Assembly (NCBI RefSeq): GCF_004006315.1
Contig: NZ_CP026530.1
Span: 982,501-1,046,500, forward strand
DNA: 64,000 nucleotides
From: Nautilia sp. PV-1
Lineage (GTDB): Bacteria > Campylobacterota > Campylobacteria > Campylobacterales > Nautiliaceae
Direction of reading: 5' to 3'
The translations under genes and the position numbers were made by a program. The stretch's first letter is position 1, and each line of letters opens with the position of its first letter. Below, in pieces: positions 14,272-50,306 of the stretch. The notes beneath the pieces are model-generated. The model ran no database searches. It worked only from the letters and a program-made list of their open reading frames with translations, and was not told where the DNA came from.

Positions 14272-14299
14272 AGGAGAAAAATTTTCTCCTCTTATTTTT
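14272..14299. terminator. Possible bidirectional terminator in convergent gap
   Basis: AGGAGAAAA and TTTTCTCCT form a hairpin (14272-14290). T-rich sequence follows on the plus strand (CTTATTTTT) and moderately on the minus strand. It sits just beyond the stop of the fumarate reductase operon. Confidence 0.45.
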
Positions 14300-15161: not shown

Positions 15162-15162
15162 A

Positions 15163-16131
15163 TTAATCCTTTAACTCGTGAGTTTGAGATATTTCGATAA
15201 GTTTTTGTATCTCATCAAGACCTTCGCTTTTCGGCATCTGCCAAGGCAGTTTGATTTTGCCTTTCATGAACATTGAAATTGCTTCAGGCATATGACGCAC
15301 AACATTTGCACCCTCGCTGTAAAGTACAAGCATTCCCTCATCGAGAATTCCGTGTTTTTTAATAGAATGTACAAATCCTTCGGCATGTTTGGTAGCAACG
15401 TTTCTTTTAGCCACTCCCTCTTCAAATACCTGGTTATGAAGATGTGTGATTTTCGTAAACGGATCGACTCCTTTAGGACACACTTCTATACATCCCTGGC
15501 ATTTTACGCAGTCCCATATTCCGATTCCGAGTTTATCTACAAGTTCAAGTCTTTCTTTTTTAGCCTGATCTCTTACATCAGCCGTAAATCTGTATGTTTT
15601 TGCAAGAGCCTGAGGACCTAAGAAATCTTTATTAGCCCTGATACTTTCACATGTATAATAACAGCATCCGCATGCAATACAGTAATCCGCCTCTTCAATT
15701 AACTCTAAAAGAGCCGGTTTTATAAGATTTTCACTTTCAGGATGCTCGTCAATTTCTGCTATCAGATACGGTTTTACTTTTGCGTTTTTATCCCAGAAAT
15801 CTTTTTTATCTATCACAAGGTCTTTTATTACTTTTTCTTTGTTTTTGGTTAACGGTTCTACAATTAAAGTGCTGCCGAACATTTCAACGGCTTCTTTTAT
15901 ACTTGTTTTACACGCAAGAACGTTTTTACCGTTGAGTTTAACGGCACAGCTTCCGCATATACCGTGTCTGCAGCTTCTTCTGTAGCTGAGGCTTCCGTCA
16001 ATTTCCCATTTTATCTGATTAAGAGCGTCAAGTAAAACTCCGTCGTCTTTCAGTTCAAGTTCATACTTTTCATAATGAGGTTTGTCATCTGTTTCCGGAT
16101 TATATCTATATACTTTAAACGTTACTTTCAT
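15163..16131 (-). CDS. Fumarate reductase/succinate dehydrogenase iron-sulphur subunit
   Basis: A 322-residue electron-transfer subunit. The N-terminal plant-type [2Fe-2S] ferredoxin domain has CRHGICGSCAVKLNGKNVLAC. Then come two C-terminal cluster motifs, CIACGCCYYTC and CVKCQGCIEVCPKG. It is longer than E. coli FrdB (244), with a C-terminal extension typical of E-type enzymes. It bridges the flavoprotein and the HdrB-like subunit. Spacing to neighbours is 9 and 1 bases. Confidence 0.92.
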   Translation of the reverse strand: MKVTFKVYRYNPETDDKPHYEKYELELKDDGVLLDALNQIKWEIDGSLSYRRSCRHGICGSCAVKLNGKNVLACKTSIKEAVEMFGSTLIVEPLTKNKEKVIKDLVIDKKDFWDKNAKVKPYLIAEIDEHPESENLIKPALLELIEEADYCIACGCCYYTCESIRANKDFLGPQALAKTYRFTADVRDQAKKERLELVDKLGIGIWDCVKCQGCIEVCPKGVDPFTKITHLHNQVFEEGVAKRNVATKHAEGFVHSIKKHGILDEGMLVLYSEGANVVRHMPEAISMFMKGKIKLPWQMPKSEGLDEIQKLIEISQTHELKD

Positions 16132-16140
16132 CTTTAATCC

Positions 16141-17847
16141 TTAATATTTTCTTTCTTGAGGCTCGAATTTAGTAATTTTTACTGGAGCGTATTCAACTTC
16201 AACCTCATCATCTTTTAAATATGCAAAAGTATGTTTTAAAAACTGTTCGTCGTCTCTCTTAGGATAATCTTCCCTGTAATGCGCTCCGCGAGATTCTTTT
16301 CTGTTAATGGCGCCTTCAACTATAAACATCGCATAATCAAGCATATGGCCAAGTTCTATTGCTTCTTGAAGATCCGTATTGTAAAGTTTGCCTTTGTCGT
16401 CTAGCTTGATATTTTTATATCTTTTTCTTAATTCTTTAAGTTTTTCTTTTGCTTCAAGCATTGTGGCTTCTTCTCTGAAAACACCTACTTTTGTGCTCAT
16501 GGTTTCCTGAAGCTCGTTTCTTATATGAGAAACTTTTTCTTCCCCGTTTGAATTTAAAAGCCCCTTAACTTCATTTAACATGGTTTCGGCTTCTTTTGCG
16601 TTTGCTTCTCTTAATTCAATTTTATCCAAATCGTTAAGAATAGACTGTCCCGTCCATCTTCCATAGAAAAGTGCTTCAAGAAGAGAGTTTGCTCCGAGTC
16701 TGTTTGCCCCGTGAACGCTTACACACGCACACTCACCCGCAGCATACAGACCTTCGGTAAGTTCTGTAGCAGATTTTTTAACGTGTCCGTTAATGTCGAC
16801 TGGAATTCCTCCCATAGAATAATGCGCCGTAGCCGCAATTAAAATCGGCTCTTTAACCATATCCCGTCCTAAAAACGTTAATGCCAAATCTCTTAATTCA
16901 GGCAGTCTTTCGTTGATTTTTTTCTCCCCTAAATGTGTTAGATCAAGATATACCGCAAAAGGGTCCTCTTTTGCACCTCTTCCTTCGATTATCTCTTTCA
17001 TAATCGCACGGCTTACCACGTCACGGGGAGCCAGTTCCATTTTTTCAGGAGCGTATTTTTCCATAAAACGCTCGCCTTTGGAGTTAAAAAGCCTTCCGCC
17101 TTCTCCTCTGGCCGCCTCACTCATCAAAATTCCGCTTCCGGCAAGCCCTGTCGGATGAAACTGTACGAATTCCATATCTTCAAGAGGAATACCGCGTCTG
17201 GCTAAAATTGACAGACCGTCTCCGGTATTCGCGTGAGCGTTTGAATTTACCTTAAACGCCCTTGCGTATCCTCCAGTTGCAAACATTACCGCTTTTGCGT
17301 TAAATACGGCGGGAGTCAGATCTCTTAAGTTATAAGCAACGACTCCGTACGCCTTTCCGTCTTCATATAACACATCGGCTACATACCATTCATCAAGCAT
17401 TAAAACATCTTCTCTCACACACTGCTCATACATGGTCTGTAAAAGAGTAAGTCCCGTTCTGTCTTTTGCAAAGCAAGCTCTCGGTCTGCTCTGCCCGCCA
17501 AACGGCCTTTGGGCTATTCTTCCGTCTTCGCGTCTGCTGAACACCGCACCCATTCTTTCAATCCATCTGATTGTCTCAGGCGCTTTTTCACACATAAGCT
17601 CAACCGCGTCCTGATCGGCAAGATAATCGCTACCTTTAACCGTATCGAATTTATGAAGTTCCACATCGTCATCATCCGCAAGCGCCGCGTTAATGCCGCC
17701 CTGCGCCGCACCGGAATGTGAACGCAGTGGATGAAGCTTGGTAAGCACGGTAACACTTTTACCGGCTTTAACGAGTTCTCTTGCAGCGGCAAGACCCGCA
17801 AGTCCCGCACCTACAATTACTACATCGCTTTTATATACTGCTACCAT
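16141..17847 (-). CDS. Fumarate reductase/succinate dehydrogenase flavoprotein
   Basis: The 568-residue catalytic subunit. FAD-binding GAGLAG lies at 13-18, and His43 in [10 protein letters not shown] is the expected covalent FAD attachment site. The substrate region has QFHPTGL, HYSMGGI and [15 protein letters not shown]. There is no twin-arginine leader, so it faces the cytoplasm, unlike the periplasmic MfrA of Wolinella. In a reductive-TCA organism it would reduce fumarate to succinate; the sequence alone cannot fix the direction. It starts one base after the GltD-like gene, with AAAGGAT upstream. Confidence 0.93.
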
Positions 17848-17848
17848 A

Positions 17849-19270
17849 TTAATCCTTTAATCCCAAATCCTCTAAAATCGCATATGCCGCGTCTCTTCCG
17901 TCTCTTGCAGCCGTTACAACGAGATCCGCACCTCTTACCGCATCTCCGCCGGCATATACTTTCGGATTTGTGGTTTGATATCTTTCATTTACTTTCGGAC
18001 ATCCCCATTTATCGGTTTCGATACCCGCATGCTCGTACCATGCAAATTTTACGTTATCAAAACCAAGGGCTAATATAATTATATCACAAGGAATTTCAAA
18101 ATCGCTCCCTTCTACAACCTGAACTCTTCTTCTGCCGCTGCTGTCAGGCTCCCCTAGTTCGGTTTTTTGACAGATTATTCCCACAACATTGTTGTTTTCG
18201 TCAACTTTTACGGCTTTTGGAGCAGTATAAAACATAAAATTAACACCCTCTTCTTTTGCGTTAATCACTTCTTTTTTGCTTCCGGGCATATTTGCCTCGT
18301 CTCTTCTGTATACGCAAGTAACTTTTTTAGCACCGCTTCTTACAGACGTTCTTACGGCATCCATTGCACTGTCGCCGCCGCCAAGAACAACGACTTTTTT
18401 ATCTTTTAATATACATTCGTCAAAATCTTTGAATACTCTTTTTTGTGCATGAGTAAGCACATCCATTACGTGATACACGCCGTTTGCGTCTTCGTTTTCC
18501 ATCCTCGCACCCCTGCCGCTAGGAGCGCCGACACCTATAAATACGGCATCAAAATCGTCAACAACTTTTTCAAAATCCTCTTCCGTTAAAATAGGAGTGT
18601 TCAAATGAAGTTTAAGTCCGGCATCTTCCATCCATTTAAATCTTCTGAATATTACGTCTTTATGAAGTTTGAAATTCGGAATACCGTACGTTAAAAGCCC
18701 TCCGGGTCTGTCTGATTTTTCAAATATTTCCACATTGGCCCCTCCTCTTAGAAGATAAGTCGCACAGCTCATCCCTGCAGGCCCGCTTCCGATTACGGCC
18801 ACTCTTTTTTTTCTTTTTTTATCTTCTCCGTAGTATGGTTTTAGTCCCTGTTTAAATCCTTCTTCGCTTATAAACACTTCAATTGCGCCTATTGCAACGC
18901 TGCCGTATTCCGTTTTAGCGACAGTACACGCACCCTGGCACAGACTGTCATGAGGACAGACTCTTCCCATTACCTCAGGAAAAGGAGACGTTTCATTACT
19001 TAATTCAAACGCTTTTTTAAGATTTCCTTTTTTTACTTCCCTTATCCACTGAGGAATATAGTTGTTTAAAGGACACCCGGTTCTGCAAAAACTAAATTCA
19101 CTTTCAAGCCCTCTTAACACGTCAACCGGACAGGTAATACATCTTTTTGCCTGTTCTGTCGCTTCTTCGGTGTTGAATTCATGATAAATAGGATCAAAAT
19201 CCTTTACTCTTTCTTTGGCGTCTCTTTTTCTTTGAATTTTTTTAGGAATTCTTGTGTAATCTTTTTTCAT
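17849..19270 (-). CDS. GltD-like NAD(P)H-dependent FAD/Fe-S oxidoreductase
   Basis: 473 residues of the glutamate synthase small-subunit family. The N-terminal Cys-rich 4Fe-4S region has [20 protein letters not shown] and [11 protein letters not shown]. The first dinucleotide fold is [10 protein letters not shown] and the second is [13 protein letters not shown]. The C-terminus ends with [22 protein letters not shown] chose the ATG at 19270, which has GGAG upstream and lies 2 bases after the hypA stop. Here it sits in a hydrogenase operon rather than next to gltB. It may therefore exchange electrons between NAD(P)H and a ferredoxin instead of making glutamate. That is inference from context. 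Confidence 0.85.
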
Positions 19271-19272
19271 TT

Positions 19273-19608
19273 TCACTCCTTCACTTCTATATATTCTATA
19301 TGCATCTCTTCTCCGGCGATAATTTTTGTTTTTTCGCTGCCGCATATGGGACAGTGAAAATCAAAACCTTTAATGTCACTTTCATTTCCGCAGCCGAAAC
19401 ATTTAATTCTTACATCTACTTCTATAATTTCCATTTCAGCTGTTTCGCAAACAGTTCCTTCTTTGAAAAAGTCGAAGCTTTCTTTTAAAAAATGAGGTTC
19501 AATACCGCTCATTTTTCCTATTTTCACTACAAGTTTGGTAACTTCTTTACCTTTACTGACTTCTTCGACTATTTTCATCATAGACTGTACGACGGATAAC
19601 TCATGCAT
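19273..19608 (-). CDS. hypA: Hydrogenase nickel insertion protein HypA
   Basis: A 111-residue nickel chaperone. It begins MHE (Met1/His2/Glu3 nickel site) and carries the structural zinc site CFGCG and CPICG near residues 75-95. It delivers nickel to NiFe hydrogenase precursors with HypB, which is not in this window. It overlaps the upstream ferredoxin gene by 8 bases and lies in the Coo-type hydrogenase run, consistent with maturing CooH. Confidence 0.93.
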   Translation of the reverse strand: MHELSVVQSMMKIVEEVSKGKEVTKLVVKIGKMSGIEPHFLKESFDFFKEGTVCETAEMEIIEVDVRIKCFGCGNESDIKGFDFHCPICGSEKTKIIAGEEMHIEYIEVKE

Positions 19609-20119
19609 TTTGATTTAATCTCTCAAATGCCTCGTTTTGTTTTCTGGCCTTGTATTCCGTATAGTCTATAAGGCTCAAAGCATCCGTAGGACAAACGTTT
19701 ACACACGCCTGTTCACCCTCTGTTCCTCCGCATAAATCACATTTAAGAGCTACCAGTCCCGTTACGTTGGTAGATTCGCTAGGAGCCATTACAATCGCTC
19801 CGAACGGACACACCATTGCACAGCTTCTGCATCCTATACAGTCGTCTTCATATATTTTTACGTAATTGTTTTCATATTTGATAATATCTATAGGACACGC
19901 ATTCACACACGGCGCGTCTTCACACTGCATACACTGCATAGGTGCCGTAAGATTCGCATGTTTTATTACTGTGTTTCTATGAATAAGATCAATCCCTTTA
20001 AGCCCCATATCATATGCTTCTTCAAGACTCACTCCCATATGGCTTGCCGCACACGCAAGCTCGCAGTTGAGACATCCTATACACTTTGTAGCGTCTGCAA
20101 ATATAAATTTATTAGCCAT
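19601..20119 (-). CDS. HydN/CooF-like polyferredoxin
   Basis: A 172-residue cytoplasmic iron-sulphur protein with four 4Fe-4S motifs: CIGCLNCELAC near the N-terminus, CMQCEDAPCVNACP, CIGCRSCAMVCP, and CDLCGG with CVNVCP. It matches the HydN/CooF family that carries electrons between a dehydrogenase and an energy-converting hydrogenase. No CO dehydrogenase or formate dehydrogenase gene is in the window, so its partner is unknown. The tail ends in QNEAFERLNQNA, nearly the same as the tail of the CooX-like protein. Clean AAGGAG ribosome site. Confidence 0.87.
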   Translation of the reverse strand: MANKFIFADATKCIGCLNCELACAASHMGVSLEEAYDMGLKGIDLIHRNTVIKHANLTAPMQCMQCEDAPCVNACPIDIIKYENNYVKIYEDDCIGCRSCAMVCPFGAIVMAPSESTNVTGLVALKCDLCGGTEGEQACVNVCPTDALSLIDYTEYKARKQNEAFERLNQNA

Positions 20120-20182
20120 TTATTCTCCTTTTATATTATTTCTGCTTCACAACTTACCCACTTATCTACTTCAAAACTCACC

Positions 20183-21262
20183 TTATCTTTCAGTACATGA
20201 AATACACGGATCTATACTGTTAAATATTACAGCCACGTCAGTCAGTTTATTACCCGGAATCATAACCCTGAGAGCCTCCCAGTTCATATAAGTAGGAACT
20301 CTCCATCTCATTCTTTCCGGTTTTTGAGAGCCGTCGGTTTTTAGATAATAAATAAGTTCACCTCTAGGGGCTTCGCTTCTTGTAACCGCTTCGCCTGCAG
20401 GAATATGAGGTCTCTTTTGAGTAACGACAGGGCCTTCAGGCAAATTAGTTATAGCAACTCTCACCAGTCTTATTGATTCTTTTACTTCTCTCCATCTTAC
20501 TTTTGTTCTTGCATGAACGTCACCGTCTTCTTCAAGCATTACGTTTACTTTCAGTTCGTCATATGCCGCATACGGCGCTTTATCTCTTACATCGTTATTT
20601 ACTCCGCTGCCTCTTGCAGTAGGGCCTGTAACACCGAGTCTCAAAGCGTCTTCTTTAGGAAGAACACCTACACCGACCGTTCTGGCTCTTACGATTTTAT
20701 TGTTGAAATAAATATCAATAAGCTCGTCAACCTGCGGTTCGAGTTCGTCAAGTCTTCTTAAGATATATTCAATCTGTCCTTCATCCAAATCGTATTTAAC
20801 ACCGCTTAAAGTATTGGCGCTCATATCCATTCTGTTGCCCCAGATAGACTCTTTAATATCCTGCATAATTTCCCTGGCTTCCATTGTCTGGGTCATAAGA
20901 GAATGATGTCCCACAAGATGTGCCAGCATTGAAAGGTTAAACATATGCGATGCTATTCTTTTTACTTCGTCCGCAACGACTCTTAAATAGTTTGCTCTTT
21001 TGCTTACTTCAATCCCTGCTATTTTTTCCACAGCCATAACATATGTAAAAGGATGGTTGTTCGAACAAAGAGAGCATACCCTTTCAGTTAAAATAAGATT
21101 TTGAAAAAAGTTTTTCTGCATTGCAAGGTATTCTATACCCCTGTGAACAAAACCGTTTATCATATCTACGTTTTCAACCGTTTCACCTTTCAGGTCGATT
21201 TTAAAATATATAGGCTCTTCAAGACCGATATGAAACGGACCAATAGGAATCTTAGTTTTCAT
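20183..21262 (-). CDS. cooH: Energy-converting hydrogenase large subunit (CooH-like)
   Basis: About 359 residues; the NiFe-site subunit of a group 4 hydrogenase, homologous to NuoD. Nickel ligands are RVCSLCSNNH (C63, C66) and the C-terminal DPCISCTER (C353, C356). The protein ends exactly after this last motif, so there is no C-terminal peptide for a maturation protease to remove. I chose the ATG at 21262, seven bases after AAAGG; ATG 21265 is equally possible. It overlaps the CooU-like gene by 11 bases. It oxidises or produces H2 at the cytoplasmic face of the complex. Confidence 0.92.
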   Translation of the reverse strand: MKTKIPIGPFHIGLEEPIYFKIDLKGETVENVDMINGFVHRGIEYLAMQKNFFQNLILTERVCSLCSNNHPFTYVMAVEKIAGIEVSKRANYLRVVADEVKRIASHMFNLSMLAHLVGHHSLMTQTMEAREIMQDIKESIWGNRMDMSANTLSGVKYDLDEGQIEYILRRLDELEPQVDELIDIYFNNKIVRARTVGVGVLPKEDALRLGVTGPTARGSGVNNDVRDKAPYAAYDELKVNVMLEEDGDVHARTKVRWREVKESIRLVRVAITNLPEGPVVTQKRPHIPAGEAVTRSEAPRGELIYYLKTDGSQKPERMRWRVPTYMNWEALRVMIPGNKLTDVAVIFNSIDPCISCTER

Positions 21263-21770
21263 CATTATGCCTTTCACTTTCAATTTTTTCCCACATACAG
21301 CAGGTTGCCGCTCCGTTCATCGCCTGAGAAAGCGGCATATATTCGCCTAAAATCCCCTCGGCTATACTTTCGTCAAGGAACAGTCTTTTTGGATTAGGAT
21401 GTCCTATTAGCTCTATTCCGAACATTTCTTTAAACTCTCTTTCAGTCCAGTTTGCGGAATCCAAAATAGGCGTAATAGAATCAACTTTATTATCAAACAG
21501 CTCTACTTCAACGTTTAAAAGCATTCCGTCTATATCTAGATGATATACAAGCACGTGATGGTCGTCTTTTTTATATGCACTGATAATTACGCATCTTCCT
21601 CCGAAATCTTTTACAAGCTGCGCAACGTGCAGTATGTCTCTTCTGTTATGAAGTTTCAGCCAAAGCTGAATGTTTCCTTTTTCATCAACCTCTTCTCTTA
21701 ATTCATAATTACCGGGTTCGAGTCTTTCTTTTATTTCCGCTTTTACTTTTCTTTTTAATGTTTCTTTCAT
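21252..21770 (-). CDS. cooU: Energy-converting hydrogenase subunit, NuoC-like (CooU-like)
   Basis: A 172-residue protein homologous to NuoC and the N-terminal part of HycE. It contains the 30-kDa-subunit signature: ILDSANWTEREFKEMFGIELIGHPNPKRLFL carries the conserved E-(R)-E-x-x-(D/E)-x-F-G-I block. It holds the large subunit to the ferredoxin arm. It is separate from the large subunit, as in Coo- and Ech-type enzymes. It overlaps cooX by 4 bases and cooH by 11. Confidence 0.88.
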   Translation of the reverse strand: MKETLKRKVKAEIKERLEPGNYELREEVDEKGNIQLWLKLHNRRDILHVAQLVKDFGGRCVIISAYKKDDHHVLVYHLDIDGMLLNVEVELFDNKVDSITPILDSANWTEREFKEMFGIELIGHPNPKRLFLDESIAEGILGEYMPLSQAMNGAATCCMWEKIESERHNDEN

Positions 21771-22270
21771 TGATGCAACCTTTCAAAAGCTTCATTTTGT
21801 CTGCACTTAGGACATAGTGTTAAAAATCTCTTAATACTGTCGTTTACCTTAGGATATGCCCTTTCAAGCAGTTCATAGCTTGGCGCCATAAAATATTCTC
21901 CGCATTTTTCACATTTTACTTCAGGCACCGTTGCTACCGTAATAAATTTAAATTTCTCCTCTTCCGTGTTTGCAGTATGAAAATCATTGCTCAGTTTTAT
22001 TGCCCCGGTAGGACAGAAAAATTCGCAGTTCCCGCAGTAACAGCATGTGTTGTACCATGTCGTATGTACGTATACGTTATCGTTTTTTGTTATATGTATC
22101 GCACCGGAAGGACACACTTCCTCACATGTCCCGCAGGCGGTACAGGCTTTCGCGTCTACGCTTAATTTACCTCTTAATTTATCCGGTATAAATGTAGGCC
22201 CAAACGGATAAGGGTCTGTTGTCGGACCTTTTAATAGATTTCTTATAGCAATTTTTAAAAATCCGCTCAT
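21767..22270 (-). CDS. cooX: Energy-converting hydrogenase ferredoxin subunit (CooX-like)
   Basis: A 167-residue NuoI/HyfH-type subunit. Two 4Fe-4S motifs, CTACGTCEEVCPSG and CCYCGNCEFFCPTG, lie at about 40-95. A C-terminal zinc-ribbon-like pair (CEKCGEYF and CPKC) follows. It relays electrons from soluble ferredoxin to the small subunit. The C-terminus KCRQNEAFERLHQ is shared almost exactly with the HydN/CooF-like protein three genes downstream. It overlaps both neighbours by 4 bases. Confidence 0.9.
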   Translation of the reverse strand: MSGFLKIAIRNLLKGPTTDPYPFGPTFIPDKLRGKLSVDAKACTACGTCEEVCPSGAIHITKNDNVYVHTTWYNTCCYCGNCEFFCPTGAIKLSNDFHTANTEEEKFKFITVATVPEVKCEKCGEYFMAPSYELLERAYPKVNDSIKRFLTLCPKCRQNEAFERLHQ

Positions 22271-22695
22271 TTTTGACCCCTTATTCTTTGTTTCCAGATT
22301 TCAAGCGCTTTGGCGACGCCGTCAATTATAGCCTGCGGTCTGGGCGGACATCCCGGAACGTTTACGTCTACTCTTACATATTTGTCAAGCGGTCCTTCAA
22401 TAGCATATGAATCTCTGAATATACCGCAGCTTGTAGGACACGTTCCCACAGCCACTACAACAAAAGGATTAGGAAGTTCATCCAAAACTTCAAGCAGATA
22501 AGGCTTGCTTCTGGCTGTAATTGGACCGGTAACAAGTAAAATATCAGCATGTTTAGGGCTTCCTGTATATCTGCATCCAAGTCTTTCAACGTCATACCTA
22601 GGAATCATAGCCGTTGTGGCCAGTTCCACGTCACATCCGTTACAGCTCCCTGTATTTATTCTGAATAAAAAGGGACTTCTGGTTATAATACTCAT
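22267..22695 (-). CDS. cooL: Energy-converting hydrogenase small subunit (CooL-like)
   Basis: A 142-residue NuoB/HycG homologue that carries the proximal 4Fe-4S cluster next to the NiFe site. Cluster cysteines are visible in TGSCNGCDVE near residue 17, in VGTCPTSCG and in PGCPPRP. Length matches CooL/EchC (about 140). It overlaps the membrane subunit gene by 4 bases. Confidence 0.92.
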   Translation of the reverse strand: MSIITRSPFLFRINTGSCNGCDVELATTAMIPRYDVERLGCRYTGSPKHADILLVTGPITARSKPYLLEVLDELPNPFVVVAVGTCPTSCGIFRDSYAIEGPLDKYVRVDVNVPGCPPRPQAIIDGVAKALEIWKQRIRGQK

Positions 22696-23651
22696 ATTAA
22701 TCCTTTAACAGAAAGAATTACTAAAACAAGTGATGTAAATGCCAACACAACAGGCACTTTAATTAAAAATTTAAATTCCTGGTCCGCTCTGAAAGATGCC
22801 AAAGAGGCATGTGCCAACGCTATAAATCCGACAAGGAAAAGCGTTTTAACAACAAACCATAATAAATTAATAACGACATCTCCCCCTATTACGCTCGGGA
22901 AAAAGAATATCTGAAACACTATGCTTAAAACAACGATTTTTAACGCATCGGTAATTTCAAAAAGAGCAAGAGGAGCTCCGCTGTATTCGATTAAATAACC
23001 TTCCATAATATCAGCATGGTTATGGTGCGCAACTTCAAAAGGAGGCACTTCTAAAGTAGCCAGAACAAATATTAAAAACGCAATAAACGCAGGCCAAAGT
23101 TTCCAGTCAAAAAGGAAGTAGCCGTGCTGCATCTGGTAATCCATTATTTTTTTAAGAGAAAATTCACCGCTTCCGTGTCCGACATATATTGCCAATGTAA
23201 GACCTATAATAATAAATACAAACTCGTAAACAAGCATAAGTTTCAGCTCCCTACTTACACTGATAGCCGCATAAGGAGAGCTTGACGCACCACCTCCCAG
23301 AATATGGGAAATAGCCGGAAGCGCCATAAAGTAAATAAGTATGATTAAATCGTAATCACCCTTTACGCCTTCGTATACACCGGGAACCGGTAAAAAGTAA
23401 ACAAGAACAAGCATTCCCGAAAATCCGAAAAGCGGCGCAAATTTAAATACAAAATCCTTTGCGTCTTTAGGTATAAGCGTTTCTTTATTTAACAGTTTTA
23501 TAATATCGATTATATTCTGATAAAAAACCGGACCTACGCGTCCTTGGAACCTTGCAACCAAAATTCTTTCTATACTGATAAGTATAAGACCTAAAAACAC
23601 CGCAAAAAGCCCTCCCGGAAAGACAAAAAAGTTTATTAAATTAGCGTTCAA
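22692..23651 (-). CDS. cooK: Energy-converting hydrogenase membrane subunit, NuoH-like (CooK-like)
   Basis: A 319-residue integral membrane protein with about eight helices, homologous to NuoH/HycD/EchB. It shows ERILVARFQGRVGPVFYQN in the first loop, the acidic loop VPPFEVAHHNHADIMEGYLIEYSG and a polar LMLVYEFVF helix. It couples the hydrophilic arm to the ion-pumping subunit. It overlaps the large antiporter-like subunit gene by 11 bases and cooL by 4. Confidence 0.92.
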   Translation of the reverse strand: MNANLINFFVFPGGLFAVFLGLILISIERILVARFQGRVGPVFYQNIIDIIKLLNKETLIPKDAKDFVFKFAPLFGFSGMLVLVYFLPVPGVYEGVKGDYDLIILIYFMALPAISHILGGGASSSPYAAISVSRELKLMLVYEFVFIIIGLTLAIYVGHGSGEFSLKKIMDYQMQHGYFLFDWKLWPAFIAFLIFVLATLEVPPFEVAHHNHADIMEGYLIEYSGAPLALFEITDALKIVVLSIVFQIFFFPSVIGGDVVINLLWFVVKTLFLVGFIALAHASLASFRADQEFKFLIKVPVVLAFTSLVLVILSVKGLI

Positions 23652-26600
23652 CGTAACCTCCTTTTAAACCGAATATTCTTTTGGTTACTCTAACAATAGA
23701 AGAGATAAGCACTATTAACGGCTCGTAATAGTTTTGTGAATGCAGATGAATTTCGCTTTCGCTCAAATCTCTGACTCCGGAGAGGAATATATGCGTATTT
23801 CTTTCTTTTCTGCCAAAATACATAATTAACGATCCGCCTATAATAATGGCTATTATCAGATAAACTGACAGGTCTGCCATATTTAGCGTATCGGCTCCGA
23901 TACTTACAGAAGCCAAAGTATATGAAATTGGATTAAATCCGAATCCTTCAAGAACCATGTTTATAGGTTTAAGCATTATTGAAGGGAAAATACCTAAAAG
24001 AATATTTAAAACAGCGAGTATTCCCATAGGAACCGCCATATACAAATCGACCCTGCTGACGTTCATAAATCTTTTTTCAACTTTACCGAAATAAGCCGAA
24101 TGCAGGAATTTAACAAACACAAGCAAAATCATAATACTTCCGAGAAGCGTCATGACGGCCAGGAATACATACCCTTTTTGTAAAAGAGCGTGATAAATCA
24201 TCCATTTTGAAACGAAACCGCTGTATAAAGGCACACCGGCTGTTGAAAACACAGCTACAAGGAACGTCAAAAACGTAATAGGCATTTTTCTTGCAAGCCC
24301 GCCGATTTCGTCAAGGTTGTCAATTCCGGTTTTATAGAAAATCGCTCCCGCACTTAAGAAAAGCAGATCTTTAAAGAACATATGGTTTACAAGATGTAAA
24401 AGTCCTCCCGCCAAACCGTCGTTAGTCAGAAGAGACACACCGGCTATGATATATCCTATCTCGGCAACCGTTAAGAAAATAAGAAGTCTTTTCATAGAGT
24501 TAGTAAGCAGTCCGAAAGCCGCTCCCATCAAGATAGTAACAACACCCACAGTTGCGGCTATATGCCCGATAACACCAATACTTGCGAGTCTTATTGCAAC
24601 AGCTCCAGCAATTATGAAATAAAACATCTTAACAAGCATAAAAGGACCTGTTTTTAACATTGTGGAAGAAATATATCCGCTTATCGGAGTCGGTGCCGGT
24701 TTAGGGTGCATTTGATAATCTATTCTTATCGGAAGCTGTGCCGCTTTGGCAAGGAATCCGATTGTAAGCAGACTGATGGCAAATATAACCTCATGTGTTA
24801 AAGGAATTGTTTTAAATACCAGACAGCTGTTTCCATATTTTAATATTACAGACAGTCCTATCATAAGTATTCCCGCACCGGCAAAATTATATACGAGATA
24901 TTTGCTGGCTTCCCTTATCGAATAATCGTCTTCTTCATGCACAAGTGCGATATACAGAGCCCATCCGCCCATAATTTCCCAGAAAAAGAACATATTATAA
25001 ATGTTTTTAGCCAGCGCCACTCCTAAAATCCCTACTATCATAACCATAAAATTAGCAAAGAATCTGTTTGGTTTATGAGAGTGGTCCATATACTGTATTG
25101 CATAAGTAAAATTAAGTACGGCCATAAACAGTACTAGCCCGGCAAAAAACACACCGAAACTGAATTTATGAGTGAAAATTTCAAGAAGCGCTATAAACGA
25201 AAAACTTGCCGCCAATATACCTGCGTTTTTACTTGTTTTACCGAAGAAAAACACCACAATAGCGCCCAATGTCATAATTATTACGCTTAAAGGCAGATTT
25301 AACACGAAATCAGGAGTGTTTACGTTTAACGCCAGAGTCTGATGAATAGCCGAATTGATGAAACTTAACACTTCTTTCGGAAACACACCTAAAAGAAAAG
25401 ACACGAACGCCAGTAAATAGACAACCCAGAGTTTAAGTCCCCCTACTTTTTTAAATTCTCTGACAGGGTTTAATAAAAAGATAAATCTGAACACCCTGAG
25501 CATACCTATAAACCCGATAACCGCACCTATAATCAATCCAAACGCAACAAGATAATTGTCGCTTTGCATACTTGCGTTTATCATTAAAAATTTAGAGTTG
25601 AAATTCCCAAAAGGAGGAAAAGCGCTTATTGCAAAAACGCCTACACCGAGAGGAAACGCCAAAAGAGGCATTTTTTTACCGATACCTTTTAAATCGTCAA
25701 GGTTTCTGCTGCCTGCGCTCATAATTAAAAGACCGGCGCTTAAAAACAACAGGTCTTTTACCACCGCATGGTTGATTATATGATAAAGAGCGCCGCTGAG
25801 AGCAAGAGAGCTCATCAGTCCCAGCACAGTAACTATTTCACCGATTTGACCGATTGTGGAATACGCAAACAGTCTTTTAATGTCTTTTTCAAAAAGAGTT
25901 TTAATTTCACCGTAAAAAAGAGTCACAAGACCGATACCTATTAACAAATAAGAAAAAATCTGTGAATTGAAGTTAAATACGTATATTAATGTAATAATTC
26001 CAAAAATACCCGCTTTTGTTAAAATACCTGAAAGAGGCGCGGAAATACTGCTTGGAGCTTCCGGATGCGCTGCCGGCAGCCATTTATGAAGAGGCACAAT
26101 ACCGGCTTTTACACCGAAACCTAGAAGCATAAGTATTCCGATATTTAAAGAAACGGCGGAAACGTCAGTAAAATACTCCATACCGTTCGCATAAAAATCA
26201 GAAAATGCAAGCTGCAACAGATATGCACCGCCGATACACATTACAAAATATATTTTTGCAGCACTAATCGCCGCATCTTCCCTGCTGTGCATAATTAAAA
26301 GATATGAAGAAATCGTCATAAGCTCCCAGAAAAGATAAAAACTTTCAAAACTGTCGCTAAGAGCAACTTCTATTAAAGCAATTGAAAGTATGGCTAAAGC
26401 CGAATAATAGAATTTTTTATGTTTTTGTATATAATCGAAAGAATATAAAAATACAATAAATGCAATAAAAGCGAATATTAATGCAAAAATACCTCTAATT
26501 CCGCTGAAATCAAACCCGAAACTCAAAGTAAACGGTTTAATGTTTCCGAATAATTTAGGTATGATCAAATAAACCTGAGGCAGTACAAACACCGCAATAC

Positions 26601-27126
26601 CCGCTAATGTAAAAATACCTACAGGCAGCAGATTTGTGATTTTTGCAGTTTTTTCACCTTTTTTAAATACAATAGTTTCAAAAAGGGACATTAAATAAAC
26701 TGCCTGAACGATATTGATTACAACAATCATATACCCAAGCTCAAACATCCCCGCACTTGAAAAAGCATTTAGAATTAACTGTTTAGAAGTAATTAAAGAC
26801 ACTCCCAAACTGCCGAATATTGCAAAACCGAACACTACACCGCTCCAGCCGAATCCTACACCGGCAAGATCGCTTAATTTTTCGCTTTTTGCAAAAGCAA
26901 AAAATTCAAACAGCATCAAAAACGCCAAAATTCTGAACACCGTCTGATATTCAATATGCAGTACCGCAGCGCTTAATGCGCTGTTTGAAATAATTGCGAC
27001 TCCCAGATAAAACAGCTCAGCAATACTTGCAACAACAAACGACTTTTTAACATTTTCTTTGTTTGTTAAAGCAAATATTTTGAGTGCGAGAATCACAAGG
27101 AGAAATAAAAACACAATACTTTCCAC
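23641..27126 (-). CDS. cooM: Energy-converting hydrogenase double antiporter-like subunit (CooM-like)
   Basis: A very large (about 1161-residue) membrane protein made of two tandem NuoL/M/N-type modules. The first module has FLFWELMTISSYLL and KAGIVPLHKWLPAAHPEAPSS, the TM5 Glu and TM7 Lys of proton-pumping subunits. The second has FFFWEIMGGWALY and KAAQLPIRIDYQMHPKPAPTP. Single-module homologues are about 500-650 residues. CooM of CO-oxidising bacteria is similarly long. I prefer a GTG start at 27126, which has AAAGGAG five bases upstream; the ATG at 27153 has no ribosome site. It is the first gene of the 12-gene run. Confidence 0.87.
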   Translation of the reverse strand: MESIVFLFLLVILALKIFALTNKENVKKSFVVASIAELFYLGVAIISNSALSAAVLHIEYQTVFRILAFLMLFEFFAFAKSEKLSDLAGVGFGWSGVVFGFAIFGSLGVSLITSKQLILNAFSSAGMFELGYMIVVINIVQAVYLMSLFETIVFKKGEKTAKITNLLPVGIFTLAGIAVFVLPQVYLIIPKLFGNIKPFTLSFGFDFSGIRGIFALIFAFIAFIVFLYSFDYIQKHKKFYYSALAILSIALIEVALSDSFESFYLFWELMTISSYLLIMHSREDAAISAAKIYFVMCIGGAYLLQLAFSDFYANGMEYFTDVSAVSLNIGILMLLGFGVKAGIVPLHKWLPAAHPEAPSSISAPLSGILTKAGIFGIITLIYVFNFNSQIFSYLLIGIGLVTLFYGEIKTLFEKDIKRLFAYSTIGQIGEIVTVLGLMSSLALSGALYHIINHAVVKDLLFLSAGLLIMSAGSRNLDDLKGIGKKMPLLAFPLGVGVFAISAFPPFGNFNSKFLMINASMQSDNYLVAFGLIIGAVIGFIGMLRVFRFIFLLNPVREFKKVGGLKLWVVYLLAFVSFLLGVFPKEVLSFINSAIHQTLALNVNTPDFVLNLPLSVIIMTLGAIVVFFFGKTSKNAGILAASFSFIALLEIFTHKFSFGVFFAGLVLFMAVLNFTYAIQYMDHSHKPNRFFANFMVMIVGILGVALAKNIYNMFFFWEIMGGWALYIALVHEEDDYSIREASKYLVYNFAGAGILMIGLSVILKYGNSCLVFKTIPLTHEVIFAISLLTIGFLAKAAQLPIRIDYQMHPKPAPTPISGYISSTMLKTGPFMLVKMFYFIIAGAVAIRLASIGVIGHIAATVGVVTILMGAAFGLLTNSMKRLLIFLTVAEIGYIIAGVSLLTNDGLAGGLLHLVNHMFFKDLLFLSAGAIFYKTGIDNLDEIGGLARKMPITFLTFLVAVFSTAGVPLYSGFVSKWMIYHALLQKGYVFLAVMTLLGSIMILLVFVKFLHSAYFGKVEKRFMNVSRVDLYMAVPMGILAVLNILLGIFPSIMLKPINMVLEGFGFNPISYTLASVSIGADTLNMADLSVYLIIAIIIGGSLIMYFGRKERNTHIFLSGVRDLSESEIHLHSQNYYEPLIVLISSIVRVTKRIFGLKGGYVER

Positions 27127-27266
27127 TCTCACTCCTTTAAAATGATTAATCATTCATATTTTAAAACGAATTTAAATGAAAATTAAGAGAATGTGCAGAT
27201 ATAATTAAATTTAATGAATGAGTGTTTATTTTTTACACATAAAAAGACAAAAAAAGTTTTTTTATC

Positions 27267-27284
27267 CATTGACTGCAGTCAATG
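27267..27284. promoter_or_regulatory. CATTGAC-N4-GTCAATG palindrome upstream of chemoreceptor
   Basis: An 18-bp perfect palindrome CATTGAC-TGCA-GTCAATG. The only other copy in the window is upstream of hcp (47629). The core TTGAC-N4-GTCAA is of the Crp/Fnr type and resembles sites described for HcpR/DNR-like regulators. TAAAAT at 27305-27310 is centred 32 bp downstream, the class-II activator spacing. TATAAT at 27300-27305 is an alternative -10. Confidence 0.7.
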
Positions 27285-27335
27285 AAGCAAAAAACGTGCT
27301 ATAATAAAATTATAAGTAAAAACCAAAGGCTTAAC

Positions 27336-29285
27336 ATGTCTTTTAAAAACCTCTCTATATCCAAAAAAATCCACTACCCTCTAATAGCTGCTATTATAAT
27401 CGGTATCGTCATTATGATAATAATCAGTTATAACTCCACGCAGAATATTAAAAAAGAAATTTTCCATAACACAAAAGAAGATTTAATAAGTCTTTTTAAG
27501 CTTAAAATGGAAGCAAAAAAAGATGTCGGAATCACAAACGCAATCTCAATAGCTCAGAATACCGCCGTAATAGAAGCTTTAAAAACAGGCGACAGGAAAA
27601 TAGCTTTAAAAGCACTTAAAAAATTAACAGAAGAATATAAAAAATATACAAAATTCAAAAATATAAAAATACATATACACACATCCGATCTGCATTCTTT
27701 TTTGAGGGTATGGAAACCGAATAAATACGGAGACGACTTAAGCGGATTCAGAAAAACAATCGTCTGGGTAAAAGAACATAAAAAACCTCTGGTTGCCATT
27801 GAATTAGGAAGAGCCGGACTGGTGTTAAGAGGCCTTTCACCGGTTTTTGACGATAACAGATATATTGGAAGCGTTGAATTTATGCAGGGCTTAAATTCAA
27901 TTGCCAAAGATTTAAAAAAACAGCATATATACACTTTAATTATATTTAATAAAAAATATCTAAACATAGCCAAATTTTTAAAAAGCGCTCCTGAAATTAT
28001 GAACAATTATGTAATGGCTTTGAAAAAAAGCGCTTATGACGAGTCGTTTTACAACGACCTTAAAAACAAAACGCTTCAAAAAATCATAAAAACAGACAAA
28101 TATTACTGCGTTTCCATTCCGATCAATGATTTCAGCGGAAACACAGTAGCATACGCAATTCTCGGTAAACCCTTAAATTTAATACAGGGCGCAATAAAAA
28201 CCAGCGAAAAAAGTTTAATTTACCAGCTTGTGGCAATGCTTATAATCGACATATTGATTGTAGTTATTTTAATGATTATAATTTCAAAAAGCGTTGCGAA
28301 ACCTATTAAAGAATTAAACGAAAGAGTTGAAGATCTCGCACAGGGCGAAGGTGATCTTACAAAAAGAATAAAAATAGATTCGAACGATGAAATAGGAACC
28401 GTGTCTTCAAATATAAATAAATTTTTAGAAAAACTTCAAAATATTATTAATTCGTTAAAAGATCTGATTTCACAGACAGTATCTATTACAAAACAGACAG
28501 ACAGCGTTACGAAAAAAGTTAAAAATTCCATTGAACAGCAGACCAAGCTTCTAAACGACGCAAAATCTTTCACCGGCAATATCGAAGAAGATATAGAAAC
28601 AACAAGACAGAGTGTTTTAAAAACATCGGAAGACATCAAAAACACCCAAAAAGTACTTGAAGACCTTGCTCAATCTCTGCAGGAAATAGTCTCAAGCATT
28701 CAAAACAATTCCAGCCAGGAGCTTGAAATTTCCAATAAAGTAACAATGCTTGCCGATCAGTCAAACCAGATAAAAGAAATCATTACAATAATTAAAGAAA
28801 TAGCGGATCAGACAAATCTTCTCGCTCTAAACGCCGCAATAGAAGCTGCTAGAGCCGGAGAACACGGAAGAGGTTTTGCCGTAGTAGCGGATGAAGTAAG
28901 AAAATTGGCTGAGAGAACCCAAAAGAGTCTCAGCGAAATAGACAGTGCTATAGGCATTATTGTACAGGGGATTATGGAAACACAAAATGAAATACAGAAC
29001 AACGCTCAAGACTCCGAAAAGCTTTCAAATATAGCCAGCAGCTTGATAGAAAAATCAAATAACGGTATGGAAAAACTTAACACGACAATCAGCATATCGG
29101 AAAAAGCAAAAGAAGAAACAGAAAAAATCTATGCGTCTATAAAAGAAATGGTCAAAATTATTGACAATCTGAATAAAGAGGCCTTAACAAGCGAAGAAGC
29201 AGTTGCAGAATTAAATCAGATCGTTAACAGACTTGATCTAATTACTAAAAATCTTTTAAAAGAAGTAAATAACTTTAAATCTTAA
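27336..29285 (+). CDS. Methyl-accepting chemotaxis protein with Cache sensor
   Basis: A 649-residue transmembrane chemoreceptor. TM1 lies at about 15-35. A periplasmic Cache-type domain (about 40-270) has [12 protein letters not shown], then VLRGLSPVF and YIGSVEF, like double Cache_3 sensors. TM2 is at about 290-315, a HAMP domain follows with EGDLTKRI, and a cytoplasmic signalling domain carries the hairpin core [20 protein letters not shown] and [18 protein letters not shown]. The start is the ATG at 27336 with AAAGG upstream, not the in-frame ATG at 27282 inside the palindrome. Its promoter carries the same palindrome as hcp, suggesting induction by the same N-oxide-type stress or electron acceptor. 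Confidence 0.92.
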
Positions 29286-46308: not shown

Positions 46309-47634
46309 ATGATGAAAAAAATCATAAAACTTTTTAAAGCGCCTTTAAGTAAGTTCGCCCTTTTAAGAGATTTTTTATTAGCATCAATCTTAACCGGATT
46401 TTTAAGCGGTATTTTTGTCGTTATATATGATCTCCTTGCAAAAATAATATCAAGAATACTTTATAAAGGCGATCCAATATCCACTATTCCTAATCTGCCG
46501 GTATGGTATGTTTTTATAATTCCTATTATATCCATTTTAATCGTAAATTTTATAATCTCTTTTGACAAAAGCGTTAAAGAATACGGGGTAAGCGAAATAG
46601 CGGAAATCGTAAGCGAAGAAAAAGAAATGATCACCATTAAAAATCTTTTTTTAAAGATTATAGCTTCAGCCATTTCAATCGGAAGCGGGTTTTCAATGGG
46701 TAACGAAGGTCCTTCAGCCGCTATAGGAGCTATGATCGCTTATAAAATCCACCATTTGTTAAAATTTCCCGCAAACCTTATAAAACCTCTAATAAGCGTA
46801 GGAGCCAGCAGCGGTATTGCAGCAATTTTCGTATCTCCTATCACAGGCATAGCGTTTGCAATAGAAAGTATTGCATATAACTTTGTAAAAAGCTACATTT
46901 CTTTTATTATTGTCGGAAGCCTGAGCGCTTTTACCATTTCCGTAAAATATCTTGATTCTTTTACTTTTGTCTATTCGGCCGGAAGAATAATAGACGACAG
47001 GTATATATATCTGACCGCGGCGTTTATTCCTTTTATAACATTTTTTATTTATCTGTATTTGACTCTTCAGGATAAAATCCTATATGTTTTAAATTTAAAA
47101 CTTTTTAACAGATTCGGCAAATTCAAAGATATCATATTCGCAATAATTGGAGGAAGCGTAATAGCTTTGATTCTGATAATAAGTCCTTACGCTGGCTTTA
47201 CAGGCCATAATATTGTTACACTTCTTATAAACAGTGAAAAAACGATTCCTATTCTATTTATCGTTGAACTGCTTTTGTTAAGAATTTTCGCCACATCTTT
47301 TTCAATATATTCAAACGCGATAGGAGGTATGTTCGTTCCTTTGATGAGTATCGGGGCTTTGGTCGGATATCTGTTTGGAGAAATAGTTTTTAAAATGCAT
47401 ATAGAAATAGAACCTTTCTATTTTGCCGCGATTGGAGCAGCCGTTTTTATGGGAGTGCTTATGAAACTTCCTTTAACTTCCATTGTTTTAGCCCTTGAAA
47501 TCACAAACGATTACAATGTCGTTGTCGCAACAGGTGTAAGCGTTGCCATAATTTCTTATCTAACAAGATTAAATTTCAATATCAAAAAATTCAACACAAT
47601 TAATATAAATTTCTCTGATCTTAAGATTCATTGA
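46309..47634 (+). CDS. ClC family chloride channel/transporter
   Basis: A 441-residue inner-membrane protein with about 10-12 helices. The selectivity-filter regions are SIGSGFSMGNEGPSAAIGA (G-N-E-G-P with the gating glutamate) and NAIGGMFVPLMSIGALVG. It is likely a Cl-/H+ exchanger or anion channel. There are no C-terminal CBS domains. Promoter TATAAT at 46279-46284. Its stop codon overlaps the palindrome that precedes hcp. Confidence 0.9.
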   Translation: MMKKIIKLFKAPLSKFALLRDFLLASILTGFLSGIFVVIYDLLAKIISRILYKGDPISTIPNLPVWYVFIIPIISILIVNFIISFDKSVKEYGVSEIAEIVSEEKEMITIKNLFLKIIASAISIGSGFSMGNEGPSAAIGAMIAYKIHHLLKFPANLIKPLISVGASSGIAAIFVSPITGIAFAIESIAYNFVKSYISFIIVGSLSAFTISVKYLDSFTFVYSAGRIIDDRYIYLTAAFIPFITFFIYLYLTLQDKILYVLNLKLFNRFGKFKDIIFAIIGGSVIALILIISPYAGFTGHNIVTLLINSEKTIPILFIVELLLLRIFATSFSIYSNAIGGMFVPLMSIGALVGYLFGEIVFKMHIEIEPFYFAAIGAAVFMGVLMKLPLTSIVLALEITNDYNVVVATGVSVAIISYLTRLNFNIKKFNTININFSDLKIH

Positions 47635-47646
47635 CCGCAGTCAATG
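47629..47646. promoter_or_regulatory. CATTGAC-N4-GTCAATG palindrome upstream of hcp
   Basis: CATTGAC-CGCA-GTCAATG, overlapping the stop codon of the ClC gene. TAAAAT at 47667-47672 is centred exactly 32 bp downstream, the spacing of a class-II Crp/Fnr activator. The same element and spacing precede the chemoreceptor at 27336. Confidence 0.75.
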
Positions 47647-47702
47647 CATTAAACTTTCCAAAAGACTAAAATACTCTCGTAACAAAATTTTAAGGAGTAC
47701 TA

Positions 47703-49124
47703 ATGTTCGGTTTATTCGGAAAAAAAGAAGAAACAAAAAATAACGCTTGTGATCTGCAGTTTTTATGCTGGCAGTGTGAAATGAGTGCACCAGGCGGATG
47801 TGGAAGCCATGGTGAAAGCAAAGGTGTTTGCGGTAAAACATCTACAAAATCAAGACTTCAGGATTTAATGATATACGGTCTTAAAGGTCTCAGTGCATAC
47901 AGAGAGCATGCAAGAGAGCTTATTGATATGAACAACCCTGATGAAAGACAAATATTAACTGAAATTGACGATGTAAACTCTGAAACGTTATATTTCACAC
48001 TTACAAACGTAAACTTCAACTTTGACGAGCATATCGCTCAGCTTATGAAAGTTGGACAAGCCGGTGTAAAAGTTATGGATTTATTAAGCGAAGCACATAC
48101 AAAAGCACTTGGAATCCCGGCACCTGTAGAAGTTACTCAAAACAAAGCGGAAGGTAAAGGAATCCTTGTTTCAGGACATAACCTTGATATGCTTGAAAAA
48201 CTTCTAAAAAGAATAGAAGAAAGAGGACTGAGCGATAAAATCAACGTATATACTCACTCAGAAATGCTACCTGCACACGGTTATCCTCATCTTAAAAAAT
48301 TCAAAAACCTAAAAGGTAACATCGGTAAAGCTTGGTTCGACCAGACTGATATTTTCAGCAAATGGAACGGAACATGTGTAGTAAACACTAACTGTATCGT
48401 ACCGCCTGAAAAATCTAAAAAAGTACAAAACTATATCGACAGACTTTATACATATAAAATCGTAGGTATCGAAGGTGCTAAAAAAATAGAAAACGACAAC
48501 TTTGATCCGCTAATCGATCAGACTTTAGAACTGCCTGATATTACAGGATTCGACAGTGATGAAAAACTTGTAACAGGACATCACTACAAAACAGTTCTTG
48601 ACGCATTCGGAGCAAAAATCCTTGATGCGATTAAAGAAGGTAAACTAAAAAGAGTATGGGTTATTGCAGGATGTGACGCACCTGGTAAAAAAAGAGACTA
48701 TTTCAGAGAGTTAGCTCTTGCAGTACCTAAAGATCATATCATTATCACATCAAGCTGTGGTAAATTTAGATTCAACGACATCGATTTCGGAACAGTACCT
48801 GGTACTGACATTCCAAGATATATCGACCTTGGTCAGTGTAACGACAGTAACGGTGCAGTTCATATCGCACTTGCGGTTGCTAACGCTTTAGGTGTAGAAG
48901 ACGTAAATGATCTTCCGGTATCAATCGCGCTTCTATGGATGGAGCAAAAAGCTATTATTATTCTTTTAGCATTATTAAGCCTTGGAATAAAAGATATTTT
49001 AATCGGGCCAAACGCTCCTCAATTTGCCGACGAAGCTATCGTTAACTTCTTAGTTGAAAACTTTAACTTCGGTGTAATCAGCGGTGATATTCACAAAGAT
49101 TTCGGTAAAGAACTTGCTTCTTAA
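47703..49124 (+). CDS. hcp: Hydroxylamine reductase / hybrid cluster protein
   Basis: A 473-residue enzyme. The N-terminal cluster site has CWQCEMSAPGGCG then GVCG. Hybrid-cluster ligands are in GHHYKTVLD, VIAGCDAPGKKRDYF, TSSCGKFRFND, LGQCNDSNGAV and LWMEQKAI. It reduces hydroxylamine to ammonia and/or NO to N2O. It is shorter than the usual 550 residues, lacking about 80 residues in the N-terminal helical part, like the short (class III) forms. In Nautilia this enzyme has been linked to nitrate ammonification. Strong AAGGAG ribosome site. Regulated from the palindrome at 47629. Confidence 0.94.
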   Translation: MFGLFGKKEETKNNACDLQFLCWQCEMSAPGGCGSHGESKGVCGKTSTKSRLQDLMIYGLKGLSAYREHARELIDMNNPDERQILTEIDDVNSETLYFTLTNVNFNFDEHIAQLMKVGQAGVKVMDLLSEAHTKALGIPAPVEVTQNKAEGKGILVSGHNLDMLEKLLKRIEERGLSDKINVYTHSEMLPAHGYPHLKKFKNLKGNIGKAWFDQTDIFSKWNGTCVVNTNCIVPPEKSKKVQNYIDRLYTYKIVGIEGAKKIENDNFDPLIDQTLELPDITGFDSDEKLVTGHHYKTVLDAFGAKILDAIKEGKLKRVWVIAGCDAPGKKRDYFRELALAVPKDHIIITSSCGKFRFNDIDFGTVPGTDIPRYIDLGQCNDSNGAVHIALAVANALGVEDVNDLPVSIALLWMEQKAIIILLALLSLGIKDILIGPNAPQFADEAIVNFLVENFNFGVISGDIHKDFGKELAS

Positions 49125-49193: not shown

Positions 49194-49583
49194 ATGCTCA
49201 TAGAAAAAGTAAATCCGGTTGCATTTGAACCGATGAACGAAATACACAACAGGGAACTTCACTATGTAAACAGTTTATATGACGCTATCATAAACGGAAA
49301 AGACATAGAAAAAGCATATGAAGAATTTTTAAATGACGTAAAAGAACATTTTGCTTTTGAAGAAAAACTTATGGAAAAATACAATTTTTTTGCAATTGTT
49401 CCTCATAAAATGGAGCATGCCAGAATATTAAACGAACTTACAGAACTTAAAAGCAGACTAAATGACACTGAATATCTTAAAGATTATTTAACAAAGGCGT
49501 TTATACCTTGGCTGGAAAATCATATTAATACAATTGATACGGTTACGGCAGGGTTTTTCAAAATGATAAACGCTACCATGTAA
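49194..49583 (+). CDS. Bacteriohemerythrin-like protein
   Basis: A 129-residue single-domain hemerythrin. The diiron ligands are visible in order: His in EIHNRE, HFAFEEK (H-x3-E), HKMEHA (H-x3-H) and HINTID (H-x4-D). These proteins bind O2 reversibly or react with NO. The position between hcp and a Crp/Fnr regulator suggests protection or sensing in oxygen or nitric-oxide metabolism. The 3' end overlaps the convergent regulator gene by 11 bases. Confidence 0.9.
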   Translation: MLIEKVNPVAFEPMNEIHNRELHYVNSLYDAIINGKDIEKAYEEFLNDVKEHFAFEEKLMEKYNFFAIVPHKMEHARILNELTELKSRLNDTEYLKDYLTKAFIPWLENHINTIDTVTAGFFKMINATM

Positions 49584-50208
49584 AAAACTCTTTTATTTTT
49601 TCTTTATCTTTTACTATTAACTTGCTTCCGGTATTTTCAATTATTCCGAGTTCTTTAAATTTTTTAAGTTTTCTGCTTAATGTTTCAGGTTTTATATTCA
49701 AAAGACTGGCAATGCTGTGCTGTTTAAGTTCTCCGAACATTTCATCATTGTCATATATAAACTTTGCTATTTTTGTTTCGGTATCAAGGATAAGATTATC
49801 CTGAATAAGATCGTCTAAAAATTTCATTTTTTTAAGAAGAGAACTCATTATGGAAAAACAGACATCTCCGTTTTTCATAAATTTTTTAAAAGGTTCAAAT
49901 TCTATTTTTAAAATAATTCCGTCTTCATCCATTGCACAGTTGGCGGGATAAGGCATATTTTCGAAATTTGCAAGTTCAGCAATTAAAGACACGGGCAGAA
50001 ATTTGTGTATTACAAGCTCATTGCCTTTATTGTCTACTTTATACACTCTTACACTTCCGCTGATAAGAAGATGAAGATACGCAGGATTTTCTTTTTCATA
50101 AAATACTATTTCGTCTTTTTTTAAATTTTTTACGATTGTAAACTTTTCTATCTCTTTGATCTGCTCGTCGCTGAGACCTTTAAACAAAAAAAGGTTGCCT
50201 AAATCCAT
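49573..50208 (-). CDS. Crp/Fnr family transcriptional regulator
   Basis: A 211-residue regulator. N-terminal cyclic-nucleotide-like sensor domain (roughly 1-120; LHLLISGSVRVYKVDNKGNELVIHKF) and C-terminal winged helix with recognition helix IASLLNIKPETLSRKLKKFKELGI. It lacks the N-terminal cysteine cluster of FNR, so an Fe-S oxygen sensor of that type is unlikely. A haem or other ligand is possible, as in DNR/HcpR-like proteins. The start is the ATG at 50208 after GAGGT. Gene position next to hcp makes it the best candidate to bind CATTGAC-N4-GTCAATG. Confidence 0.87.
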   Translation of the reverse strand: MDLGNLFLFKGLSDEQIKEIEKFTIVKNLKKDEIVFYEKENPAYLHLLISGSVRVYKVDNKGNELVIHKFLPVSLIAELANFENMPYPANCAMDEDGIILKIEFEPFKKFMKNGDVCFSIMSSLLKKMKFLDDLIQDNLILDTETKIAKFIYDNDEMFGELKQHSIASLLNIKPETLSRKLKKFKELGIIENTGSKLIVKDKEKIKEFFTW

Positions 50209-50306
50209 ATATACCTCTTTTTGTTGTAATTTTATCACAAGACCCCAGCTTCTTTACAATTTATTTACGTTTTTTAGTCAATTTTATTACATAAAGTAAT
50301 AAACAA

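Follow-up and report, generated by a model that had tools for sequence, protein, structure and literature searches.

A chemoreceptor gene of Nautilia sp. PV-1 with a predicted HcpR/Nss/DNR-type operator

In Nautilia sp. PV-1 the gene for one chemoreceptor is preceded by a TTGAY-N4-RTCAA palindrome of the kind seen in regulons of HcpR/Nss/DNR type. We consider it likely that this receptor and the hybrid cluster protein gene hcp are jointly controlled by a Crp/Fnr regulator of that type, probably the one whose gene adjoins hcp, because the receptor site has an hcp-like score, lies in the same promoter geometry, is conserved with symmetric changes, belongs to the receptor gene and fits the content of the regulon in the family. 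The sequence-only reading had likewise considered shared control of the chemoreceptor with hcp, and the hcp-like score, the -41.5 geometry, the symmetric changes in the orthologue and the ownership of the site now support this well as a prediction. The relevant features of the window, by which we mean the whole 64-kb stretch of DNA analyzed, are as follows.

27267..27284, no strand assigned: perfect 18-bp palindrome CATTGACTGCAGTCAATG, predicted Crp/Fnr-family (HcpR/Nss/DNR-type) operator of the chemoreceptor gene
27300..27305, + strand: TATAAT, alternative -10 of the chemoreceptor gene; the palindrome centre would then lie at about -36.5; kept in N. profundicola
27305..27310, + strand: TAAAAT, candidate -10 of the chemoreceptor gene; the palindrome centre would then lie at -41.5 (class II)
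27336..29285, + strand: chemoreceptor, 649 aa, best start ATG at 27336, with dCache_3 (65-280), HAMP (316-368) and MCPsignal (466-615)
47629..47646, no strand assigned: CATTGACCGCAGTCAATG, predicted hcp operator, identical to the har motif published for N. profundicola
47667..47672, + strand: TAAAAT, -10 element of hcp
47703..49124, + strand: hcp/har, hybrid cluster protein (hydroxylamine reductase), 473 aa
49194..49583, + strand: bacteriohemerythrin, downstream of hcp
49573..50238, - strand: Crp/Fnr-family regulator with recognition helix KPETLSRK, the likeliest binder of both sites

The palindrome, its promoter geometry and its conservation

The 18-mer at 27267-27284 is its own reverse complement. 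When up to three mismatches are allowed, the window holds one other match to it, at 47629-47646 with a single mismatch, against 0.01 expected by chance. TAAAAT follows both 18-mers after a gap of 20 bases, and the centre-to-centre distance from palindrome to hexamer is 32 at the receptor and hcp sites alike. Thus, the earlier description of a perfect palindrome with only one second copy in the window was borne out, as was that of a TAAAAT box exactly 32 bp downstream of both, the distance being understood from centre to centre. The second possible -10 element, TATAAT, and the divergent hydrogenase operon starting near 27126 had not figured in it.

We also searched with a composite pattern, namely the site followed by 21 or 22 bases and TANNNT, against a reversed control. 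It occurs twice in the window (0.03 expected) and eight times in the single-contig 1.79-Mb genome (1,791,100 bp), where the control gives none; 21 genomes of the family together hold well over a hundred, versus a handful in the controls. The bare core TTGACN4GTCAA is present in three exact copies in the PV-1 genome; its one-mismatch copies show no enrichment across the whole genome (32, versus 50 in the control), and this count was left unused. Since the bare core lacks enrichment at one mismatch, it is weak evidence on its own, and the case gains its strength from the extension to 18 bp, the constant spacing and the conservation.

A matrix (PWM) spanning the 18-mer and the -10 hexamer was derived from 14 hcp promoters of other genomes, with none from the window. 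It ranks the hcp site first in the window (36.1) and the receptor site second (35.1), the hcp range being 29.3-37.4. Read backwards, the two sites score 18.8 and 10.5; the next position in the window reaches 6.2, and among 7.7 million Markov-random positions the highest score is 16.0.

We examined 23 promoters (15 of hcp and two each of the receptor, feoAB, hemerythrin and rubrerythrin-like genes). Counted from the first T of the site, a -10 hexamer starts at exactly 36 bases in every one of them, versus an average of 0.37 of the 23 at other offsets, and the receptor gene is in this respect the same as hcp. By arithmetic, an offset of 36 puts the centre of the site at -41.5, which is the class II activator position for Crp/Fnr proteins. 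The TATAAT at 27300, which would give a non-class-II spacing, could be the true -10.

A complete genome of the same genus (G018; 1,676,444 bp), which we take as N. profundicola because it carries the har motif published for that species, encodes a receptor orthologue with 82% protein identity. At the aligned place its promoter has CATTGATTATAATCAATG, also a perfect palindrome, with a score of 26.4 and with TAGAAT as the -10 where PV-1 has TAAAAT. The four differences from the PV-1 site are all symmetric and form two mirror pairs, a pattern with a chance of about 0.001 given four random substitutions. The C-to-T alternation between TTGAC and TTGAT is also seen among hcp sites across the family, TTGATTATAATCAATG being the hcp site of the family genome G015. 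As the hcp sites alternate but the regulator's recognition helix is PETLSRK in nearly all copies examined, it is plausible that a single regulator recognizes both forms. Conservation of the site in orthologous upstream regions, which the sequence-only reading had proposed as a test, held in N. profundicola and failed further afield, the site being absent from 28 more distant receptor homologues outside Nautilia (37-55% identity). The receptor orthologue is present in just two genomes, and the conservation therefore rests on one comparison. The other receptor genes of either Nautilia genome have no such site nearby, and a GTDB scan for the receptor, from which near genomes may be left out, gave no match.

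The candidate regulator and its regulon

In the window, hcp is followed by the hemerythrin gene and then by the convergent Crp/Fnr regulator gene, which lies beside hcp throughout the family with its PETLSRK helix unchanged in nearly all copies examined. The encoded protein combines a cNMP-binding domain with a Crp-type HTH bearing E181/R185 (the FNR-type reading head); it has no N-terminal FNR-type cysteine cluster and no cysteine before a mid-protein NCAM motif, and its best solved match with a named function is DNR (3dkw, E 8e-9).

Sites extended by TCAATG precede hcp in 15 of 15 promoters examined and account for 12 of the 13 exact ygbA sites among 19 genomes of the family, while rhodanese genes are preceded by such sites in five genomes, PV-1 included. 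The ygbA product belongs to Pfam YgbA_NO, and in E. coli NO induces both hcp and ygbA, which are targets of NsrR (PMC5320621). The hcp, ygbA and rhodanese genes make up a nitrosative-stress set, and by the TCAATG extension of its site the receptor falls in with them. The content of this predicted regulon is not uniform, since ygbA, with an exact site in 13 of the 19 family genomes, lacks one in both Nautilia genomes, perhaps through a lineage-specific loss.

The third exact TTGACN4GTCAA site of the PV-1 genome (at 1748453) shows proper -10 spacing toward a gene for a secreted rhodanese, and the rhodanese genes of four other genomes also have a site of this kind; agmatine deiminase was rejected as its target, with TAAAAT at offset 21 on that side versus offset 36 on the rhodanese side. 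At the feoAB, nifS-like and rubrerythrin-like genes, TTGAYN4RTCAA sites are conserved within the genus and show a -41.5-type spacing (35 for the nifS-like gene), with no TCAATG extension; these are possibly a separate iron/redox regulon of a second Crp/Fnr paralogue.

We propose that a homodimeric Crp/Fnr regulator of HcpR/Nss/DNR type, most likely the product of 49573-50238 next to hcp and hemerythrin, would bind the palindrome at -41.5 and, as it would at hcp, activate the TAAAAT promoter. The inducing signal would probably be NO or other reactive nitrogen species arising from nitrate/nitrite metabolism. Nautilia would then probably make this palindrome-controlled receptor, one among about a dozen that the cell possesses, under nitrosative stress.

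Alternative explanations

An AT-rich promoter might simply happen to hold a palindrome: at the composition of this genome, perfect 18-bp palindromes are by our own estimate no rarity in themselves, and the TTGACN4GTCAA core occurs about as often as chance predicts. The receptor site, however, scores far above the 7.7 million random positions, its spacing is fixed and the compensatory changes in the orthologue are symmetric, and on the near-copy count, the matrix score and the composite-pattern count we reject chance resemblance, to which we assign a negligible probability. Alternatively, the palindrome might serve the operon on the other side, its place before the chemoreceptor being incidental. 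The features that bear on this are:

27127..27335, no strand assigned: divergent intergenic region between the hydrogenase operon and the chemoreceptor gene, 209 bp
23641..27126, - strand: first gene of the divergent Coo/Hyd-3 (group 4 hydrogenase) operon, a rival target that was rejected

Crp/Fnr proteins often control hydrogenases, and the two divergent transcription units have the 209-bp region in common. Nevertheless, five receptor-less coo operons of other genera show no such site within 350 bp, with the rest of their upstream region partly recognizable as conserved, and on this absence the operon was rejected as the target. The palindrome also lies about 150 bp from the hydrogenase start, and the matrix is strongly directional, with 35.1 toward the receptor versus 10.5 toward the hydrogenase operon, all of which makes control of the hydrogenase through this site very unlikely. 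Three of the five receptor-less coo genomes have the gene order proS-fxsA-coo, and both Nautilia genomes have the receptor gene between fxsA and coo. From the site-free operons, this gene order and the directional matrix, the palindrome is, as judged from the genome comparison, the receptor gene's own, having come with the receptor or arisen for it; probably, an insertion in the Nautilia lineage placed the receptor gene between fxsA and the Coo operon, with a regulated promoter of its own.

The binder might instead be the second Crp/Fnr paralogue, encoded at G000:C1:437941-438561 in the PV-1 genome and present in nearly all family genomes. Its helix, AETLSRIL, is similar, the ETLSR recognition helix being common to both paralogues, and it could bind TTGAT-type sites; the receptor would then fall into a broader redox/iron programme with the feoAB, nifS-like and rubrerythrin-like genes, whose TTGATN4ATCAA-type sites have almost the same spacing. 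We hold this to be unlikely, however, for the TCAATG extension, found on both receptor sites as on those of hcp (15/15) and ygbA (12/13), is absent from the feoAB, nifS-like and rubrerythrin-like sites, and across the family it is the hcp-adjoining regulator, not the paralogue, that shows physical linkage to hcp. We hence still prefer the reading in which the hcp-adjoining regulator controls the receptor gene jointly with hcp.

Two further observations concern the hydrogenase side of the intergenic region. Just upstream of the start of the Coo operon, window positions 27141-27154 hold a second palindrome, AATGATTAATCATT, which is a candidate operator of that operon because it is identical in N. 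profundicola and recognizable in other genera. Across 14298-27126 the Coo/Hyd-3 genes are followed on the same strand by genes for a ferredoxin, a GltD-like flavoprotein, the A and B subunits of fumarate reductase and an HdrB-like protein, an arrangement that suggests one long electron-transfer operon.

The sensor domain and known systems

The dCache, HAMP and MCPsignal domains of the receptor all score above the Pfam cut-offs, confirming the earlier identification of a Cache-domain chemoreceptor downstream of the palindrome. The PilJ nitrate-binding domain found in McpN-type receptors gave no match in this protein, whose sensor is a dCache_3 domain. This sensor domain is broadly distributed in the order, with a match at E <= 0.001 in 129 of 200 genomes; relatives in other families of the order are 39-55% identical, and the invariant residues include H113, H115, R124, W126, K130, D133, D134, R139 and R165. 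A search by sequence gave no meaningful solved relatives of the sensor. An AlphaFold2 model of receptor residues 1-292 (mean pLDDT 92.5) has as its closest solved folds the sensor domains for citrate, C4-dicarboxylates and amino acids, which are dCache-type neighbours. As these bind carboxylates or amino acids, the model suggests that the ligand is organic. The movement in response to nitrate, nitrite, NO or hydroxylamine that the sequence-only reading had envisaged is left unsupported, given the breadth of the sensor family, the relatives outside Nautilia that lack the site and the carboxylate and amino acid ligands of the fold relatives. That the receptor, besides its place in a nitrosative-stress regulon, also senses an N-oxide, or else a metabolite signalling nitrosative damage, strikes us as improbable; were it so, Nautilia would move along gradients of nitrate, nitrite, NO or hydroxylamine under HcpR-type control.

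Several known systems resemble the proposed one in part. In the portion of the source considered here (PMC1274295), regulons of the HcpR1 branch of HcpR from delta-proteobacteria and cyanobacteria similarly have a wyTTGACnnnnGTCAArw site upstream of hcp, a Crp/Fnr regulator that is often encoded near hcp and lacks FNR-type cysteines, and a recognition helix with Pro or Ser at 180 and Glu at 181; they differ in that no chemoreceptor is among the targets named there. The Nss/NssR proteins of Campylobacterota (NssA/B/C of Wolinella and NssR of Campylobacter; PMC11539149) come from the same phylum and the Crp/Fnr superfamily and have a Dnr-type DNA-binding domain and the consensus TTGA-N6-TCAA, as in Nautilia; in contrast, their known targets are denitrification and NO-defence genes. 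A paper of 2009 had described the identical 18-mer CATTGACcgcaGTCAATG as the hcp (har) site of N. profundicola, for har only and as a site for repressors, and relative to that publication (PMC2628731) the receptor site and the -41.5 activator geometry are new. Because the -41.5 position is invariant, we read the har site as an activator site, which would revise the published reading from repression to activation.

NsrR is a repressor of the Rrf2 family, unrelated to Crp/Fnr proteins. In E. coli it is NO-responsive and, as Partridge et al. reportedly found in 2009, has targets that include hcp, ygbA and motility functions. Unlike in Nautilia, this motility control involves no single dedicated receptor. 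The nitrate chemoreceptor McpN of Pseudomonas aeruginosa (PMC6381276) is likewise tied to nitrogen-oxide physiology and regulated at the transcript level, but its PilJ domain binds nitrate, and nitrate lowers its transcript, whereas the Nautilia receptor has dCache_3, predicted activation and another type of regulator.

No chemoreceptor under HcpR-type control was found in the literature searched; the hcp site is known, and the chemoreceptor as a predicted member of an HcpR/Nss/DNR-type regulon is new. In vent Campylobacterota, a particular chemoreceptor would thereby be tied to nitrosative-stress control, in a form amenable to a one-gene, one-site test, within a family-wide regulon of hcp, ygbA, rhodanese and receptor genes that is outlined here from sequence alone.
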